Source: Chrysemys picta bellii (Eukaryota > Chordata > Testudines > Emydidae). From it: a DNA stretch of 64,000 nucleotides. The stretch covers positions 64,257,587-64,321,586 of the forward strand of contig NC_088797.1 in NCBI RefSeq assembly GCF_011386835.1, given 5' to 3'. The notes beneath the pieces were generated by a model. The model did not search any database. It was not told the origin of the DNA and saw only the letters and a list, made by a program, of their open reading frames with translations. Both the position numbers and the translations under genes were made by a program. Shown here one piece after another: positions 4,041-41,937 of the stretch (the stretch's first letter is position 1; each line of letters begins with the position of its first letter).

Positions 4041-4364
4041 CAGTAAAATCTAGAGTTACAAACACCTGAGGAATGGAGGTTGTTCGTAACTCTGAAATGT
4101 TTGTAATTCTGAACAAAACGTTGCTCTTTCAAAATGTTACAACTGAACATTAACTTAATACAGCTTTGAAACTTTACAGTGCAGAAGAAAAACGCTGTTT
4201 TCCCTGTATTCTTTTAGTAGTTTACATTTAATACAGTATAGTACCGTATTTGCTTTTTTTTTGGTCTCTGCTGCTGCCTGATTGCATACTTCTGGTTCCA
4301 AATGAGGTCTGTGGTGGACTGATCAGTTTGTAACTCTGGTGTTCATAACTCTGAGATTCTACTG
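4041..4364. mobile_element. Tc1/mariner (pogo-like) MITE with TA target duplication
   Basis: A 324-bp non-coding element begins CAGTAAAATCTAGAGTTAC and ends with the near-perfect inverse of that terminus (gttcataactctgagattctactg). The TIRs match over about 26 bp with one indel and a few substitutions. It is flanked by TA on both sides (4039-4040 and 4365-4366). A CAG...CTG terminus with TA duplication is typical of pogo/Tigger-type Tc1/mariner MITEs. No transposase is encoded. Confidence 0.85.
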
Positions 4365-4366
4365 TA

Positions 4367-4828
4367 TATTCAATATGATTATTCTCTCTCTCCTTTTACA
4401 ATGGATAACTGTTGATCTAAATGGAGTTACTCCTGATTTACATTGCATTGAGCACAGTCAGGCCCACTGATTATATATTTTTTTCAAAACATAACATGCT
4501 TACTAATTTAAAGAAGAATATACTACTTATAAAATACATTTAAATAAGTTAGTGGTAGCAGAATGTTATGATCAAAGCATGCGTGCGCGCTCTCTCTCTC
4601 TCGCTCTCAAATTAAAAACCAACCCCTCTTCCCCTCTCCCCCTCCCCCCCCCCCCCAAAAAAAAAATTCTGTGCCCCTAGTTATTCTGGACTACAAATTT
4701 TCTCTCTCAAGGTTTAGTTTCTGAAATTAATGTTGTTGACGGTCCTGTGCCTGACACTCATATTTTCAGGGGTATTTTGTTTTTTAAAAAATAGAGTACA
4801 ATGTAATGAAAACGTGTGCTTGTGTATG
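4367..4828. repeat. Simple sequence and unassigned flank
   Basis: This contains a GC/TC dinucleotide run (about 4582-4607), then a C-rich tract and an A tract (about 4621-4668). The remainder up to the hAT target site may be the left part of the LTR-like repeat that resumes at 7206. I see no gene. Confidence 0.6.
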
Positions 4829-11501: not shown

Positions 11502-12711
11502 ATGGATCCCGCTGCGATCATCGCTGCAGTTATGGCTGTTGTCAACACCTCGCACCTTATCATCCACCTTTTTCAGAGGCAGATGCTGAGAAATCAGGCG
11601 AGGAGGCTACGGCAGCGCGGTGAGGACATGAAGTCTGAGAGGGGCACAGACCTGTCACAAAGCACGGGACCCCACGTCATGGACATCATGGTGGCAATGT
11701 GTCATGTTCATACTGTGGATTGGCGATTCTGGGCCCGGGAAACAAGCACGACTGGTGGGACCGCATAGTGCTGCAGGTCTGGGAAGAATCACAGTGGCTG
11801 CGAAACTTTCGCATGCGTAAGCGAACTTTCCTGGAACTTTGTGAGTTGCTGTCCCCTGCCCTGAAGCGCAAGGACACCCGGATGTGAGCAGCCCTGACTG
11901 TCCAGAAGTGAGTGGCCATATCCCTCTGGAAGCTTGCAACACCAGACAGCTACCGGTCAGTCGCGAACCAATTTGGAGTGGGCAAATCTACCGTGGGGTT
12001 TGCTGTGATGCAAGTAGCCAACGCAATCGTTGAGCTACTGCTCTCAAAAGTAGTGACCCTGGGAAACGTGCAGGTGATTATAGATGGCTTCGCTGCGATG
12101 GGATTCCCAAATTGCGGTGGGGCTATAGATGGAACTCACATCCCTATCCTGGGACCGGACCACCAGGCCAGCCAGTACGTTAACCGAAAGGGCTACTTTT
12201 CAATGGTGCTGCAAGCACTGGTGGACCATAGGGGACGTTTTACCTGCAGGAAGGTATTTACTTCCCGGACCACAAAATAACTGTTGGGGATGTGGAGATG
12301 CCTATATTGATCCTTGGGGACCCAGCCTACCCGCTAATACCCTGGCTCATGAAGCCCTATACAGGTGCCCCGGACAGTGAAAAAGAACTCTTCAACTACC
12401 TGAAGAGTAAATGCAGAATGGTGGTGGAGTGTGCTTTTGGACGTCTGAAGGGGAGATGGAGAAGCTTACTGACTTGCTCTGATCTCAGCGAAACCAATAT
12501 CCCCATTGTTATTGCAGCTTGCTGTGTGCACCACAATCTCTGTGAGAGCAAGGGGGAGACGTTTATGGCGGGGTGGGAGGTTGAGGCAAGTCGCCTGGCT
12601 GCTGATTACGCCTAGCCAGACAGCCGGGCGATTAGAAGAGTCCAGCGGGACGCGCTGTGCTTCCGGGAAGCTTTGAAAGCTAGGTTCCAGAGTGAGCAGG
12701 GTAACCTGTGA
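11502..12711 (+). pseudogene. HARBI1-like PIF/Harbinger transposase, broken
   Basis: Read across frames, this is a full-length Harbinger DDE transposase: an N-terminal helix-rich leader from MDPAAIIAAV, a helix-turn-helix-like region (YRSVANQFGVGKSTV), first catalytic D in GGAIDGTHIPIL, second D in ILGDPAYPL, and E in VVECAFGRLKGRW. Defects are a 1-bp loss near 11750, TGA codons at 11885 and 11909 (each where related copies would have an arginine CGA), an about 73-bp deletion near 12249, and a TAG at 12613 cutting off the last ~32 codons that continue to a natural stop at 12709-12711. The copy at 63204-64000 retains the segment deleted here. It converges on the Myb-like gene, and both proteins are needed for transposition in characterised Harbingers. 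Confidence 0.9.
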
Positions 12712-12732
12712 CTATTAAGTTTGTTTAAACAG

Positions 12733-13246
12733 AAGCTGAACCTGACCCCGTTTCTTTACCCAGTTAATGTTGACTATCCTGTCCAGTTACCAACCCCCTT
12801 CCCCCCCCTTCCAACACACCTTAAAAAAATAAAATAAATTAAACTTTGTTCATTAACACAGTTTTCTTTATTAAGGATTTCGTGGTAAAGTGTTGAAACT
12901 GGGACACAGACTGTGGCGGGGAGTAGGTGTAGTGATGCAAAGAACGCTTCTAAACTCGAGGAATGACAGGCTCCTGCTCCTAGAGTGGTCCGCAGTGGTG
13001 GACTGGTTGTTTCAACAGAGCCTGCCACCCCTCCTTTTTGGCACTCTGTGTGGGGTGGGCTATGTGAGTTTGTGGCGGGGGAGGGCGGTTACAGATCCCC
13101 TGCTGCGTGCCTCTGTCATCCAGGCTAAGGACCGCTGCATAAGATCTGTAACCGCCCTCCCCCGCCACAAACTCACAACCCACCCCCGAACATGAAAACC
13201 ACCTCCCAGACTGACCTGGGTGCCTAGTGACTGCAATGTGTGTGTG
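12733..13246. repeat. Unit 1 of an internal tandem duplication in the Harbinger element
   Basis: Sequence from 'gctgaacctgaccccgt' through 'ttaccaaccccctt' and onward matches a second unit beginning at 13247. That second unit is broken by the 13310-15850 insertion and resumes at 15851 through about 16160. The units are clearly related but well diverged, which implies an old duplication or recombination between two Harbinger copies. On the minus strand the unit corresponds to the C-terminal and 3' UTR part of the Myb-like gene. Confidence 0.75.
13064..13176. repeat. Perfect 34-bp inverted repeat with 45-bp loop
   Basis: The left arm 13064-13097 (starting gtgagtttgtggcggggg) and right arm 13143-13176 are exact reverse complements over 34 bp, separated by 45 bp. 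The arms are GC-rich, so RNA from either strand could fold into a stable hairpin. The same motif (gtggcgggggagggcggtta) occurs once more at 16138-16157. The palindrome therefore seems to have arisen inside unit 1, for example by template switching. Confidence 0.9.
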
Positions 13247-13653
13247 ACCTTCTGCTGAACCTGCCCCCGTGTCCATACCCTGATAAAGGTGACTGTCCTC
13301 TCCAATTACACTGGTCTACAATTTTTGAGAAGTCGTCTGCTTCAGAGATAAAATGTGCTATTTATTATGTATTTTGATGTGCTGAATTCAAATATGACCA
13401 TTAAAACAACTGATTGGCTACTGTTTCTAAGATATTTAAGTTTTTACATTTTATGTCTATGTATATTATGTAGATAGTAGAGTTTTAATCATAAATTGTA
13501 AACTTAGGTCTCTTCCTGTGTGTATGGTTGCTTTACATGATAATATTTCACCTGTCCTGTTTATGTAACACTTCAAAAATCAGCAAAAGGGTTATATGAA
13601 TAAAATTTATTATGAAACAAAAGGCAAAAAACTATTCTGTACATAGTTTAGTC

Positions 13654-15348
13654 CTAGTCAGTGTCTACTCGGCACTTCTTGGCTTGTCTCTTGTATTCAT
13701 TAAATGGAGCATCTCTTGTCACTGTCCAGCAATAGTCTGCAAGCGTTGATGGGCTCCATTTGCCCTGATAGCGTTTCTCCATTGTTGCAATGTCCTGGTG
13801 AAATAGCTCGCCGTGCTCGTCGCTCACCGCTCCGCAGTTCGGTGGAAAAAAATCTAGATGAGTGCAAAAAATGTATCTTTAGTGACATGTTGCAACCAAG
13901 GCTTTTGTATGCCTTGAGGGGTTTTCCACCAACAACCTGTAGTTGTCTGCCTTGTTGTTTCCGAGAAAATCGATTGCCACTAACTGGAAGGCTTTCTATG
14001 CCGTCTTTTCCTTGCCACGCAGTGCATGGTCAAATGCATCATATCGAAGAAGTTCACCAATCTGAGGACCAACAAAGACACCTTACTTTATCTTAGCTTC
14101 ACTTAACCTTGGAAATTTTCCATGGAAGTACTTGAAAGCTGCTTGTGTTTTGTCAATGGCCTTGACAAAGTTCTTCATCAGACCCAGCTTGATGTGTAAG
14201 GGTGGTAACAAAATCTTCCTTGATTCAACAAGTGGTGGATGCTGAACACTTTTCCTCCCAGGCTCCAATGACTGTCGGAGTGGCCAATCTTTCTTGACGT
14301 AGTGGGAATCTCTTGCACGACTATCCCATTCGCAGAGAAAACAGCAGGACTTTGTGTATCCAGTCTGCAGACCACGCAACAGAGCAACAACCTTCAAATC
14401 GCCACAAAGCTGCCCCTGATATTGGTCATAGTTTATGCACCTCAACAGTTGTTTCATGTTGTCATAGGTTTCCTTCATCTGGACTGCATGACCAACTGGA
14501 ATTGATGGCAAAACATTGCCATTATGCAGTAAAACAGCTTTAAGACTCGTCTTCGATGAATCAATGAACAGTCTCCAGTCACCTGGATCGTGAACGATGT
14601 TGAGGGCTGCCATCACACCATCAATGTTGTTGCAGGCTACAAGATCACCTTCCATGAAGAAGAATGGGACAAGATCCTTTTGACGATCACGGAACATGGA
14701 AACCCTAACATCACCTGCCAGGAGATTCCACTGCTGTAGTCTGGAGCCCAACAGCTCTGCCTTACTCTTGGGTAGTTCCAAATCCCTGACAAGGTCATTC
14801 AGTTCACCTTGTGTTATGAGGTGTGGTTCAGAGGAGGATGAGAGAAAATGTGGGTCCTGTGACATTGATGGTTCAGGACCAGAAGTTTCATCCTCTTTCT
14901 CTTCCTCCTCTGACTCAAGTGAGAATGATTCTGGTGCATCAGGAACCGGCAGTCCTTCTCCGTGGGGTACTGGGCGTATAGCTGATGGAATGTTTGGATT
15001 ATGCACAGTCCACTTTTTCTTCTTTGACACACCTTTCCCAACTGGAGGCACCATACAGAAGTAACAATTGCTGGTATGATCTGTTGGCTCTCTCCAAATC
15101 ATTGGCACTGCAAAAGGCATAGATTTCCTTTTCCTGTTCAACCACTGGCGAAGATTTGTTGCACAAGTGTTGCAGTATATGCGTGGGGCCCACCTCTTGT
15201 CCTGATCTCCAATTTTGCAGCCAAAATAAAGGTGATAGGCTTTCTTAACCATAGTGGTTATACTGCGCTTTTGTCATGCAAAAGTCACTTCACCACAAAC
15301 ATAGCAGAAGTTATCTGCACTGTTCACACAAGTACGAGGGATCTCTGC
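13654..15348 (-). pseudogene. Remnant gene of an uncharacterised animal mobile-element protein family; possible DDE/RNase H-like transposase
   Basis: The longest open part is 389 codons (15252-14083), but similarity starts earlier (NSADNFCYVCGE, 15324 downward). It ends with a conserved tail in another frame (NCGAVSDEHGE, FHQDIATMEKRYQGKW) that stops at 13654. Within the 389-aa part there are CxxC pairs at C27/C30 and C63/C66, an acidic serine-rich linker (about 105-145), the strand-like LFIDSSKTSLKAVLL with D231, GDLKVVALLRG with D285, then CFLCEWDSR (C304/C307) and the family signature LLPPLHIKLGLMK (348-360). D231, D285 and an E in SDEHGE could form a catalytic triad; this is inference. 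Defects are in-frame TGA (15274-15276), TAA just after LSEAKIK, a TAG further on, and frameshifts near 13890 and at an A run near 13846. The family recognition is from memory. Confidence 0.75.
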
Positions 15349-15474
15349 TCACTTTGGCTAAACAGAAATGTGTCCCTTTGCAAACTCAAACACTGACAAA
15401 TAAGAGCACGACACTGTATGATTTCTAGAGCTGATATAGGGCAATTTGTTCAGCAGAGTGATGTAAGCTTTGTT

Positions 15475-15562
15475 ATGATTGCATCATCCATGACTTCTAG
15501 GAATAACATGATGCAATTCATATCATGTATGACGCAATACCAGCTTCAGATTGCATCATTCA
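15475..15562 (-). promoter_or_regulatory. Cluster of four TGATGCAA-type motifs upstream of the minus-strand gene
   Basis: Four near-identical sites lie in 88 bp: ATTGCATCAT (15478-15487), ATGATGCAAT (15508-15517), ATGACGCAAT (15529-15538) and ATTGCATCAT (15550-15559). Two sit in each orientation. TGATGCAAT matches the known C/EBP-ATF composite element bound by ATF4 with C/EBP, and TGACGCAA is a known variant. They lie between a TATA-like box (15671-15677, minus) and the coding start, so they might be 5' UTR or promoter. Alternatively they are binding sites for the element's own protein. Confidence 0.5.
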
Positions 15563-15670
15563 CTGTTTTGCCTAAAAAGCAAGTACTGTCCAAACCAAGT
15601 CATAGATTTATTCATAGATCCAGTCAAAGATGTATTTTAGTCATTTCTGGTTTAAATTGAGATCCCTTCC

Positions 15671-15677
15671 CTTTATA
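15671..15677 (-). promoter_or_regulatory. Candidate TATA box of the nested element's gene
   Basis: TATAAAG on the minus strand, about 320 bp upstream of the first recognisable codons of the 15348-13654 gene and within the same element. No transcript evidence is available. Confidence 0.35.
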
Positions 15678-16015
15678 ACTCACTTATCCTCCGCCATTCC
15701 CAAGTCAAGGGTCGTATATACTGACTAAATAGCATATGTTGAAAACTAGAGCCAATCAACAATTTTAAGCATCATTTTCGTTCTCAGTGACCCAGAATTA
15801 GTAAAGTTTGACTACATTTATTTCAGAAGCATTTTGGCTGTAGAGCAGAGTTACCAACCCCCTTCCCCCCCCCTTCAAACACACTCTCCTCTAAAAGAAC
15901 CTGACGGAAACAGTAATTAACAGAAACACTTTTTTTATTAACAACTACACAGTTAGGGGATGAAACTGGGACAAGGGCTTGGGTGAGGTGCTTTTGGAGT
16001 GACGGAAAGGACTTA

Positions 16016-17940
16016 TCAAATCTTTGGGAATGAGAGCCTTCTGCTACTTGAGCAGTCTGCAGGGGTGGAGTGACTGTTTTCACGGCTCCTGCCGCCCCTC
16101 CTTCTTGGGACTTTGGGTGACGGGGGGATGGGACTTTGTGGCGGGGGAGGGCGGTTAGCGATAGAATGCAGCGGGGCTCTGTCCTCCTGCCTCCGGTCCT
16201 GCAGAACATCTACAAGGCGCCGGAGCGTGTCCGTTTGCTCCCTCATTAGTCCAAGCAGCCTTTGAGTCGCCTGTTGGTCTTCCTGCCGCCACCTGTCCTC
16301 CCGTTCGCTGTGTGATCACTGGTGTTGCGACATGTTCTCTCTCCACTGGGTCTGCTGTGCCGCCTTGGCTCGGGAGCAGCCCGTAAGTTCGGAGAACATC
16401 TCATCCCGTGTCCTTCTCTTTCGTCGCCTGATCTGCGCCAGCCTCTGGGATGGGGGTGCCGGGGTAGCTCAGAAGACACTCGCAGCTGCGGGATGGGAAA
16501 AAGGGAGTGAATTCCTCACACAGATACAGTTTTGCGAACAATGAATATAGTCTTTCTCTGTGAACAAGACCATGCACATTACCTATCACATGCGCACTCA
16601 GTACAAGGTTGAATTTTCGGCCTTCCTATTGAGTGCCTGGGGTCTTGCTGTACAGATCACACAAGCGGGGCTGGACAACGGAATTCGGCTAGCAGGCGGA
16701 TATGGTAAGCCGTAGACTTTTGGCTGCGTAAAGCTTAATTTATAGCAGTGTCCTCCTTTCACGTTCCAAGCAATGCTGCTAGCGTTGGCCAGTTCCTGCT
16801 GCCGGCAATCCGGCCAGCATGAACTCTGCTCTTGTCCCACCCCCTTCGCGGCTGTCCCCGGGAAAGATCCCTGCATGCTGCCCCTGTCCCGCCTCCACCG
16901 CGTGGCTGTAAACTGTAAAGGAACAGGCAATCAGTCCCAATACTAACATTCCCCTAATTCAAAGCAGGTCACCATGAGTGATAGCACTCTGATGAGGATT
17001 TTGGACACAGAGAAAGAGCGCATGCTGAGTGAATTCCAGCAAACACCAGGGCCGTATGCCGCCATGCTTTGCGAGGCAATGTTCCCGGAGTACTTGCTGC
17101 TAGCCTGGCGCGGAAAAGTTTCCTACCATGGAGGACGCAATAAGGCCGCTCTCCCCAGTAACCTCATGCAAAGGCTTTCACAATACCTCCAGGAGAGCTT
17201 CATGGAGATGTCCCAGGAGGATTTCTGCTCTATCCCCGGACATATTGACAGAATTTTCCAGTAGCTGCACTGGCAAGGACTAAAAACTAAAGTGCCTAGG
17301 GCAAACTAATCATGAAAAACCCATTGTTAAGATACCATTCCTATTCTGTTCAAAATAAATGTTTAAAACACTTACCTACTGATTCTTCCCCTGATTCACG
17401 GTCCGGGTTACGGCCTTGGGAGGGTTGGTAGGGGATCTCCGTGAAGGTGATGAAGAGATCCTGGCTGTCGGGGAAATCAGCGTTGAAAGCGCTGTCGACT
17501 GTCTCGTCCTCCTCAACTTCCCTGTCCGCGAACAGCTCCGAGGAAGCGGCCGTCGACAATACCCCATCGTCAGAGTCCACTGACAGTGGTGGGGTAGTCG
17601 TGGCAGCCGCACCTAGAATGGAATGCAGTGCCTCGTAGAAACAGCATGTCTGGGGCTGGGATCCGGAGCGTCCGTTTGCCTCTTTGGTCTTCTGGTACCC
17701 TTGTCTCAGCTCCCTGATTTTCACGCGGCACTGCGTTGCATCCCGGCTGTATCCTCTCTCCGTCATGGCTCTTGAGATCTTCTCGTAGATCTTCGCATTC
17801 CGTTTTTTCAGTCGCAGCTCCAAAAGCACGGACTCATCACCCCACACAGCGATCAGATCCAAGACTTCCCTGTCAGTCCATGCTGGGGCCCTCTTTCTAT
17901 TCTGCGATTGCATGGTCACCTCTGCTGGAGAGCTCTGCAT
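16016..17940 (-). pseudogene. Myb/SANT-like Harbinger partner protein, two exons, broken
   Basis: Exon 1 (17940 down to 17376) opens MQSSPAEVTMQSQNRKRAP and encodes a trihelix Myb/SANT-like DNA-binding domain (WTDREVLDLIAVWG ... CRVKIRELRQGYQKTKE), then an acidic region. It ends at a GTAAGT donor (17375-17370). Exon 2 begins after a pyrimidine-rich tract and CAG at 16486 and continues in phase: an arginine-rich stretch with RTRDEMFSEL, then a charged coiled-coil-like C-terminus (LRRLVDVLQDRRQED) ending at 16016. Exon 2 has two in-frame stops (about 16470 and 16316), so this copy is dead. In characterised Harbingers the Myb-like partner carries the transposase to the nucleus and the TIRs. The upstream in-frame ATG at 18021 is judged less likely because the known family starts near 17940. 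Confidence 0.85.
16974..17264 (+). CDS. Small intact ORF of unknown function (96 aa) in the Myb-like gene's intron, opposite strand
   Basis: The open frame starts MSDSTLMRILDTEKERMLSE in a good context (gtcaccATGa) and ends HIDRIFQ. It contains 'YLLLAWRGKVSYHGGRNKAA' and an amphipathic C-terminal half (LMQRLSQYLQESFMEM). An AATAAA lies at 17354-17359, about 90 bp after the stop, and a CAG preceded by a short pyrimidine patch sits at the start, so it could be a terminal exon. I recognise no family. It is free of stops inside an element whose other two genes are broken, but at 96 codons that could be chance. It might be a third Harbinger-encoded protein or a non-functional ORF. Confidence 0.45.
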   Translation: MSDSTLMRILDTEKERMLSEFQQTPGPYAAMLCEAMFPEYLLLAWRGKVSYHGGRNKAALPSNLMQRLSQYLQESFMEMSQEDFCSIPGHIDRIFQ

Positions 17941-27892: not shown

Positions 27893-29272
27893 AGAAAATA
27901 AGAACGGCCGTACCGGGTCATCTAGCCCAGTATCCTGTCTACTGACAGTGGCCAATGCCAGGTGCCCCAGAGGGAGTGGACCAACAGGCAGTGATCAAAT
28001 GATCTTTCTCCTGCCATTCATCTCCATCCTCTGACAAACAGAGGCTAGGGACACCATTTCTTACCCATGCTGGCTAATAGCCATAAATGGACTTAACCAC
28101 CATGAATTTATCCAGTTCTCTTTTATACGCTGTTATAGTCTTAGCCTTCACAACCTCCTCAGGTAAGGAGTTCCACAAGTTGACTGTGCGCTGCGTGAAG
28201 AAGAACTTCCTTGTATTTGTTTTAAACCTGCTGCCTATTAATTTCATTTGGTTACCACTAGTTCTTGTATTATGGGAATAAGTAAATAACTTTTCCTTAT
28301 CCACTTTCTCCACATCACTCATGATTTTATATACCTCTATCATATCCTCCCTTAGTCTCCTCTTTTCCAAGCTGAAGAGTCCTAGCCTCTTTAATCTCTC
28401 CTCATATGGGACCCGTTCCAAACCCCTAATCATTTTAGTTGCCCTTTTCTGAACCTTTTCTAGTGCCAGTATATCTTTTTTTTTAGATGAGGAGACCACA
28501 TCTGTACGCAGTATTCGAGATGTGGGCGTACCATCAATTTATATAAGGGCAATAATATATTCTGTCTTATTCTCTATCCCCTTTTTAATGATCGCTAACA
28601 TCCTGTTTGCTTTTTTGACCGCCTCTGCACACTGCGCGGACATCTTCAGAGACTTATCCACGATGACTCCAAGATCTTTTTCCTGACTTGTTATAGCTAA
28701 ATTAGCCCCCATCATATTGTATGTATAGTTGGGGTTATTTTTTCCAATGTGCATTACTTTACATTTATCCACATTAAATTTCATTTGCCATTTTGTTGCC
28801 CAATCACTTAGTTTTGTGAGATCTTTTTGAAGTTCATCACAGTCTGCTTTGGTCTTAACTATCTTGAGCAGTTTAGTATCATCTGCAAACTTTGCCACCT
28901 CACTGTTTACCCCTTTCTCCAGATCATTTATAAATAAGTTGAATAGGATTGGTCCGAGGACTGACCCTTGGGGAACACCACTAGTTACCCCTCTCCATTC
29001 TGAGAATTTACCATTAATTCCTACCCTTTGTTCCCTGTCTTTTAACCGGTTCTCAAGCCATGAAAGGACCTTCCCTTTTATCCCCTGACAACTTAATTTA
29101 CGTAAGAGCCTTTGGTGAGGGACCTTGTCAAAAGCTTTCTGGAAATCTAAGTACACTGTGTCCACTGGATCCCCCTTGTCAACATGTTTGTTGACCCCTT
29201 CAAAGAACTCTAATAGATTAGTAAGACACGATTTCCCTTTATAGAAACCATCTTGACTATTGCTCAACAGTT
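27893..29272 (-). mobile_element. CR1 LINE, 5'-truncated, reverse strand, with reverse transcriptase remnant
   Basis: The 3' end is at 27893 (complement of ...acggccgttcttattttctt). Minus-strand ORFs at 29267-28539 and 28499-28074 are consecutive parts of ORF2 separated by a frame break. The first has reverse transcriptase motifs [20 protein letters not shown] and [10 protein letters not shown] (the catalytic ADD). The second is the conserved C-terminal region ([27 protein letters not shown]). The 5' part, including the endonuclease, is missing. It is the same subfamily as the split CR1 at 35740-43641, in opposite orientation. Confidence 0.93.
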
Positions 29273-40509: not shown

Positions 40510-41937
40510 ACCACAACCTGCCCTCCTTCCCCACTGCTGGAGTTTCTGGCAAGAAGGAACTGAGAGTTGGGGAGCCATCAGCGAACTATATATTGTGGCA
40601 TGTGCGCACCGCTCCAGGGGGCTCTGGAGCCAGTCCCCTATGGATACTGCTGAGGGAAAAACTTCTAGCTCTGGTGCATGTGATGAGCACACACACCTAA
40701 GTTGAATGGACATGAGCAACACATCTTGAAGAACACCAGTTACGGAAAAGGTCTTTTCAGTACCAGGCAAACTGGCTGAAACTATAGTAAAGAATAAAAT
40801 TGTCAGACACATAGATGAACATAATTTGTTGGGGAAGGTCAACATGGTTTTTGTAAAGGGAAATCATGCCTCGCCAATCTACTAGAATTCTTTATGGGGG
40901 TCAACAAGCATGAGGACAAGGGTGATCCAGAGGATATAGTGTACTTAGATTTTCAGAAAGCCTTTCATAAGGTCCCTCACCAAAGGCTCTTAAGCAAAAT
41001 AAGCTGTCATGTGATAAGAGGGAAGGTCGTCTTATGGATTGGTAACTGGTTAAAAGATAGGAAAGAAGGGGTAGGAATAAATGGTCAGTTTTCAGAATGG
41101 AGAGAGATAAATAGTGGTGTCCCCCAGGGGCCTGTACTGGGACCAGTACTATTCAACATATTCATAAATGATCTGGAAAAAGGGATAAACAGTGAGGTGG
41201 CAAAATTTGCAGATGATACAAAACTACTCAAGATAGTTTAGTCCCAAGCAGTCTGTGAAGAGCTACAAAGGGATCACACAAAACTGGGTGATTGAGCAAC
41301 GAAATGGCAAATGAAATTCAATGTTGATAAATGCAAAGCAATGCACATTGGAAAACATAATCCCAACTATACATACAAAATGATGTGGTCTAAATTAACT
41401 ATTACCACTCAAGAAAGAGATCTTGGAGTCATTGTGGATAGTTCTCTGAAAACATCCACTCTATGTGTAGCGGCAGTCAAAAAAGCTAACAATCTTGGGA
41501 ATCCTTAAGAAAGGGATAGATTATACGACAGAAAATATCATATTGCCTGTATATAGATCCATGGTACACTCACATCTTGAATACTGCATACAGATGTGGT
41601 CGCCCTATCTCAAAAAAGATATATTGGAATCGGAAAAGATTCAGAAAAGGGCAACAAAAATGATTCAGAGTATGGGACAGCTTCCGTATAAGGAGAGATT
41701 AATAAAATGGGCACTTTTCAGCTTGGAAGAGAGATGACTAAGGCCGGATATGATAGAGGTCTATAAAATCATGACTGGTGTGGAGAAAGTAAATAAGGAA
41801 GTGTTATTTACTCCTTCTCATAACACACGAACTAGGGGTCACCAAATGAAATTAATAGGCAGCAGGTTTAAAACAAACAAAAGGAAATATTTCTTCACAC
41901 AACGCACAGTCAACCTCTGGAACTCCTTGCCAGAGGA

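Follow-up and report, generated by a model that had tools for sequence, protein, structure and literature searches.

A degenerate copy of a young, abundant and probably Chapaev3-type DNA transposon in the painted turtle genome

The locus studied here raises the question of what kind of element a block of about 2.5 kb with inverted ends and a single broken gene represents. It lies in a stretch of 64,000 nucleotides of Chrysemys picta bellii (the window; contig NC_088797.1, positions 64,257,587 to 64,321,586 of assembly GCF_011386835.1). The initial annotation had described an unclassified DNA-transposon-like element encoding an uncharacterised protein. We found the block to be a single degenerate copy of an autonomous transposon that is both young and abundant. 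With a probability of roughly 0.9 it belongs to the Chapaev3 group of cut-and-paste DNA transposons (CMC/Transib clade). Hence, its nature as a DNA transposon was borne out but the label unclassified has to be given up, since the published Chapaev3 hallmarks are present (PMC4079192).

Ends, target-site duplication and empty sites

The limits of the element were derived from 48 genomic copies including that of the window, 41 of which have both ends and flanks. The resulting features in the window are:

13309..15850, coding strand minus: whole element, probably a Chapaev3-type DNA transposon (ends from 48 copies)
13306..13308: target-site duplication TTA, left copy (copies' ends and empty sites)
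15851..15853: target-site duplication TTA, right copy (copies' ends and empty sites)
13309..13320, plus strand: left terminal inverted repeat CACTGGTCTACA
15839..15850, minus strand: right terminal inverted repeat, CTCTGCTCTACA in the window copy and CACTGCTCTACA in most copies
12674..12985, plus strand: paralogous empty site of the window insertion (a related repeat lacking the element), junction after 12789

The block had thus been recognized correctly as a discrete element whose ends are inverted, while its limits are shifted to 13309-15850, which corresponds to 2,542 bp. The prevailing ends of the 41 two-ended copies are of the CAC...GTG type and read CACTGGTCTACAATTTTTGAG on the left and GGCTGTAGAGCAGTG on the right. 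Single copies deviate, among them the window copy with CAGAG at its right tip. The terminal inverted repeats are alike at 11 of 12 positions for the prevailing ends and at 10 of 12 in the window copy.

Alignment of the copies confirmed recurrent inverted ends but not the 4-bp TTAC duplication proposed earlier, which is ruled out by the 41 two-ended copies and the empty sites. The duplication comprises 3 bp, mostly TWA. Both sides were identical in 34 of the 41 copies (TTA 17, TAA 10, TAT 3, TTT 2, TAC 1, CAA 1) and mismatched in seven, whereas permuting the right flanks 20,000 times yielded 12.25 matching duplications on average and 23 at most. The C following the left duplication is internal and nearly constant across copies; the base past the right duplication is variable. 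In the window copy alone TTAC and TTA are indistinguishable because the target continued with C. The neighbouring bases show a preference as well, with A before the site in 35 copies, T after it in 32 and both in 27 of the 41.

For the 36 of 41 two-ended copies with sufficient flank, both flanks were joined minus one duplication and searched against the sequence collected for the analysis. Matches spanning the junction were obtained for four of them, namely the window copy (L001), L002, L005 and L009. Uninterrupted targets aligned for L002 (TAT), L009 (TAA) and L005 (TTA on the left, the right copy being TTT); of the two targets aligned for L002, one shows a 2-base gap close to the junction. 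The empty site of the window insertion is located in the window itself and shows 68% identity by BLAST and 72% over ungapped columns. It reads TTACC, which explains why the window copy resembles a TTAC duplication. Besides, 28071-28759 and 41336-41937 are copies of the dispersed repeats hit by L002 and L009 and are usable as empty sites.

Transposase gene, predicted fold and classification

The gene is located on the minus strand and its catalytic codons were positioned by tblastn of an open relative:

13654..15342, minus strand: transposase gene, degenerate (tblastn of an open relative, open reading frame pieces)
14560..14562, minus strand: codon of the first catalytic Asp candidate (D260 of P0002), invariant in 111/111 homologues, at the end of model strand 255-261
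14398..14400, minus strand: codon of the second catalytic Asp candidate (D314 of P0002), invariant in 111/111, after model strand 310-313
13807..13818, minus strand: codons E509, H, G and E512 (SDEHGE), both E invariant in 111/111, at the start of model helix 508-524
13606..13611, minus strand: AATAAA poly(A)-type signal (TTTATT on the plus strand), about 43 bp past the stop codon, string match

The single gene with its poly(A)-type string and the TATA-like box (a string match at 15672-15677) were found as initially described. In the window copy ATC stands in place of the start codon, residues 23, 421 and 450 are in-frame stops, and one more stop lies in a stretch near residues 474-495 that is shifted in frame. 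Judged from the lost start, the stops and the frameshift, the window copy cannot make an intact transposase.

Across 111 aligned homologues D260, D314, E509 and E512 are each invariant, as are C333/C336 (C(2)C), L381-H382 (LH) and H490/H495 (H(4)H). In its predicted fold the protein comes closest to RAG1 and Transib, and the confident model superposes on the RAG1 core. A RAG1/Transib-like transposase fold of the RNase H type is predicted, with E512 preferred over E509 as candidate for the third catalytic residue. The earlier proposal of a DDE/RNase H-like transposase with zinc-binding parts looks right in this respect, as the D231, D285 and SDEHGE glutamates that it named match the invariant residues. 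At the N-terminus C13/C16 are conserved in 108/111 and C57/C60, H89, C93 and C96 in 111/111 homologues, which may point to a zinc-binding N-terminus. In Chapaev3 the Chapa domain is N-terminal and zinc-binding (PMC4411706).

Chapaev elements were reported to have CAC/GTG ends, duplications of 3-4 bp and C(2)C, LH and H(4)H motifs, and Chapaev3 to have TWA duplications "always" between A and T (PMC4079192). All testable Chapaev3 hallmarks were found in the turtle element, i.e. the ends, the TWA duplication with its A/T neighbours, the motifs and the DDE residues in the predicted fold; the assignment is based on these published hallmarks. It shares all of them with Merrow and Garfield, which are also similar in size (complete proteins of about 554-562 aa, elements of about 2.3-2.5 kb) (PMC4079192). 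However, these have two exons of about 78 and 478 or 484 aa, whereas the frame of the turtle element, of about 564 aa, is uninterrupted, as reported for most other Chapaev3 elements (PMC4079192). In the homologues P0060, P0065 and P0103 the open frame starts near position 75, at the MPFAVPM residue, in keeping with a first exon of 78 aa as described for Merrow and Garfield. Hosts of Merrow are lampreys, fishes and a dragonfly, and those of Garfield are insects and a bracovirus (PMC4079192); a protein of the lamprey Lethenteron reissneri showed 80% identity over 84% of the protein of one turtle copy. Chapaev3 elements were also listed in a fly (PMC3630058), and the mention of Chapaev in PMC7397244 concerns the anole. 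In the full-text literature, with Repbase, Dfam and subscription journals outside its scope, we found no paper pairing Chapaev3 with a turtle, and we make no claim to a first description of the turtle family.

EnSpm, Mirage, Chapaev and Transib have been grouped by their CA..TG ends and 2-5 bp duplications (PMC12730594). An EnSpm/CACTA element would likewise be compatible with CACTG-type ends and a 3-bp duplication, and C(2)C and H(3-4)H motifs are described for EnSpm, too (PMC12730594). Nevertheless, we consider this improbable, as the element prefers TWA targets with A/T neighbours, has the LH and H(4)H motifs and carries a single compact gene of about 564 aa. Moreover, a Pfam scan of a 564-aa relative matched none of the families at E<=10, although Pfam may omit animal EnSpm, and the fold is nearest to RAG1/Transib, although a solved EnSpm structure for comparison may not exist.

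The lack of a Pfam match and the labels "uncharacterized" or "hypothetical" of source-named homologues among the matches listed could also speak for a novel superfamily outside all described ones, as the initial annotation suggested. As each testable Chapaev3 hallmark is present, this is very unlikely. Two PDB sequence searches gave two and one matches, all at chance level. None of 230 matches up to E 10 in a viral structure library reached E<=0.001, and the best 50 of these comprised no apparent relative, nor the bracovirus Garfield protein. Stretches with a peptide pattern in viral contigs (65) and prokaryote genome contigs (70) were not confirmed as relatives. In a second search for homologues, started with a leech member, 2,740 relatives were scored, and none of the best 120 bore a Chapaev name. 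The "uncharacterized" protein family of several animals could get renamed.

RAG1 is the enzyme that shuffles antibody genes, and the target-site duplication of Transib and RAG1 is 5 bp long. The turtle transposase is predicted to share the RAG1 core fold with RAG1 and HzTransib, but its identity to them is 12-14% and its N-terminal part lies outside the match. Furthermore, the turtle element has one gene and no RAG2 partner, unlike the RAG1 system, and its duplication measures 3 bp instead of the 5 bp of Transib. The placement of Chapaev3 within the Transib superfamily by sequence (PMC4411706) agrees with the turtle model by fold. The element and the superposing model may aid in testing the kinship of the RAG recombinase with transposases of other target-site lengths. 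As to its movement, the transposase would bind the CACTGNTCTACA ends and excise the element. The flanking host DNA would probably be left with hairpins, as with RAG1 and Transib, and reinsertion would follow with a 3-bp stagger into ATWAT-type targets.

Copy number, age and decay

The element has multiplied in the genome. The 40 candidates scored, out of 2,610 at first look, gave 45 genomic matches. Among the first 28 loci compared, including the window copy, 27 begin no more than 3 bases from the left end and L014 at base 71; the other loci reach the right end or the edge of the fetched stretch, L016 and L026 in two pieces. The 22-bp left end matched the genome 3,945 times with at most one mismatch and its reversed pattern 0 times, compared with at most a few hundred copies, several being lower bounds, in Table 1 of PMC4079192. 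A burst of miniature inverted-repeat transposable elements had been suspected because many genome matches ended before the element does. This was ruled out, as 27 of the first 30 left-end loci extend through element sequence over some 1.5 kb, about all that the compared stretch could show. Twenty of these loci were fetched in full: 18 are two-ended, 15 measure 2.5-2.7 kb and in 5 a frame of at least 550 aa is free of stops. These are exact matches from the start of one contig and hence biased to well-preserved copies; the remaining 28 of the 48 copies are the best-scoring ones of the genome match search. Were the left-end sample representative genome-wide, the family would make up about 0.4% of the genome.

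The median divergence from the column majority was 1.6% (42 copies). Private changes in 39 copies comprised 448 nonsynonymous or stop versus 156 synonymous ones, a ratio of 2.87 with 2.68 expected when transitions are weighted fourfold; no purifying selection is visible in them. Changes found in 2-3 copies numbered 87 versus 26 (3.35) and those in at least 4 copies 24 versus 12 (2.0). Divergence and substitution ratios fit a single fairly recent burst in the painted turtle followed by neutral decay of the copies, as appears to have happened. Frames of at least 550 aa are open in 12 of the 48 copies, which might be taken as a sign of a domesticated host gene repeated by chance. We regard this as scarcely credible in view of thousands of dispersed left ends, exact ends, target duplications and private changes without visible purifying selection. 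Some open-frame copies have altered key residues (L022, used solely as search query, at D314 and E512, L062 at E509, L018 at the D preceding E509); in L061 the second-D motif was not matched by the pattern, and the usual start was not seen in L006 and L062.

With the turtle family a young, high-copy and mostly full-length member of the Chapaev3 clade is now at hand. A recent DNA-transposon invasion of turtles, with the painted turtle in the species list, was also reported for hAT-6_XT, which was horizontally transferred into turtles but is annotated as a member of the hAT superfamily (PMC11008031).

Upstream site cluster and neighbouring sequences

Upstream of the gene two further features were found:

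15433..15438, minus strand: TATA-like TATATC, about 100 bp upstream of the start codon, string match
15478..15558: four C/EBP-ATF (amino acid response element, AARE) type sites TGAYGCAAT at 15478 (minus), 15509 (plus), 15530 (plus) and 15550 (minus)

Three exact TGATGCAAT and one TGACGCAAT lie inside 81 bp; on the gene strand they precede TATATC by about 40-120 bp and the start codon by 136-216 bp. Of 42 aligned copies at least 37 retain TGAYGCAAT at each site, which is uninformative on function because the copies are too young. Site 3 reads TGACGCAAT in 24 and TGATGCAAT in 13 of the 42 copies, as CpG decay would give. In 300 Markov sequences 0.06 exact matches were expected in the element (maximum 2), and with one mismatch allowed 7 matches were observed versus 1.56 expected (maximum 5). 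Since the motif was spotted by eye, the fair figure is that, out of 1000 second-order Markov sequences, 6 contain some 9-mer three times in a 90-bp span.

We lean towards the explanation that the cluster represents transposase binding sites (subterminal repeats) or chance and not a host-factor promoter. Its distance from the right tip is about 290-370 bp, CMC elements commonly have subterminal repeats, and neither the chance figure nor the conservation among young copies contradicts this. On the other hand, TGAYGCAAT was found nowhere else in the element including the region near the left end, with one-mismatch sites at 13783, 14033 and 14983, and TGATGCAAT is the published ATF4-C/EBP (AARE) consensus (PMC6480217), here a short way upstream of the gene and a TATA-like string. 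It is conceivable, albeit doubtful, that the four sites form part of the transposase promoter and wire this RAG-clade transposon to the integrated stress response of the host. If so, stress would switch the transposase on, the burst would be linked to host stress signalling and thousands of near-full-length insertions would scatter stress-responsive promoters through the turtle genome.

The element is flanked by a direct repeat pair of about 360 bp (12790-13147 and 15854-16211, about 70% alike). A segment of about 135 bp (13052-13186) matches its own reverse complement at 79%, with arms TGTGGCGGGGGAGGGCGGTTAC. In L002 a reverse-transcriptase-like frame (about 4154-4609; by eye of the long interspersed element type) adjoins another copy of the element. 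Just left of the window element, 12292-12615 contains a transposase fragment with Pfam DDE_Tnp_4 (E 4.8e-13), which looks to be of the PIF/Harbinger type.
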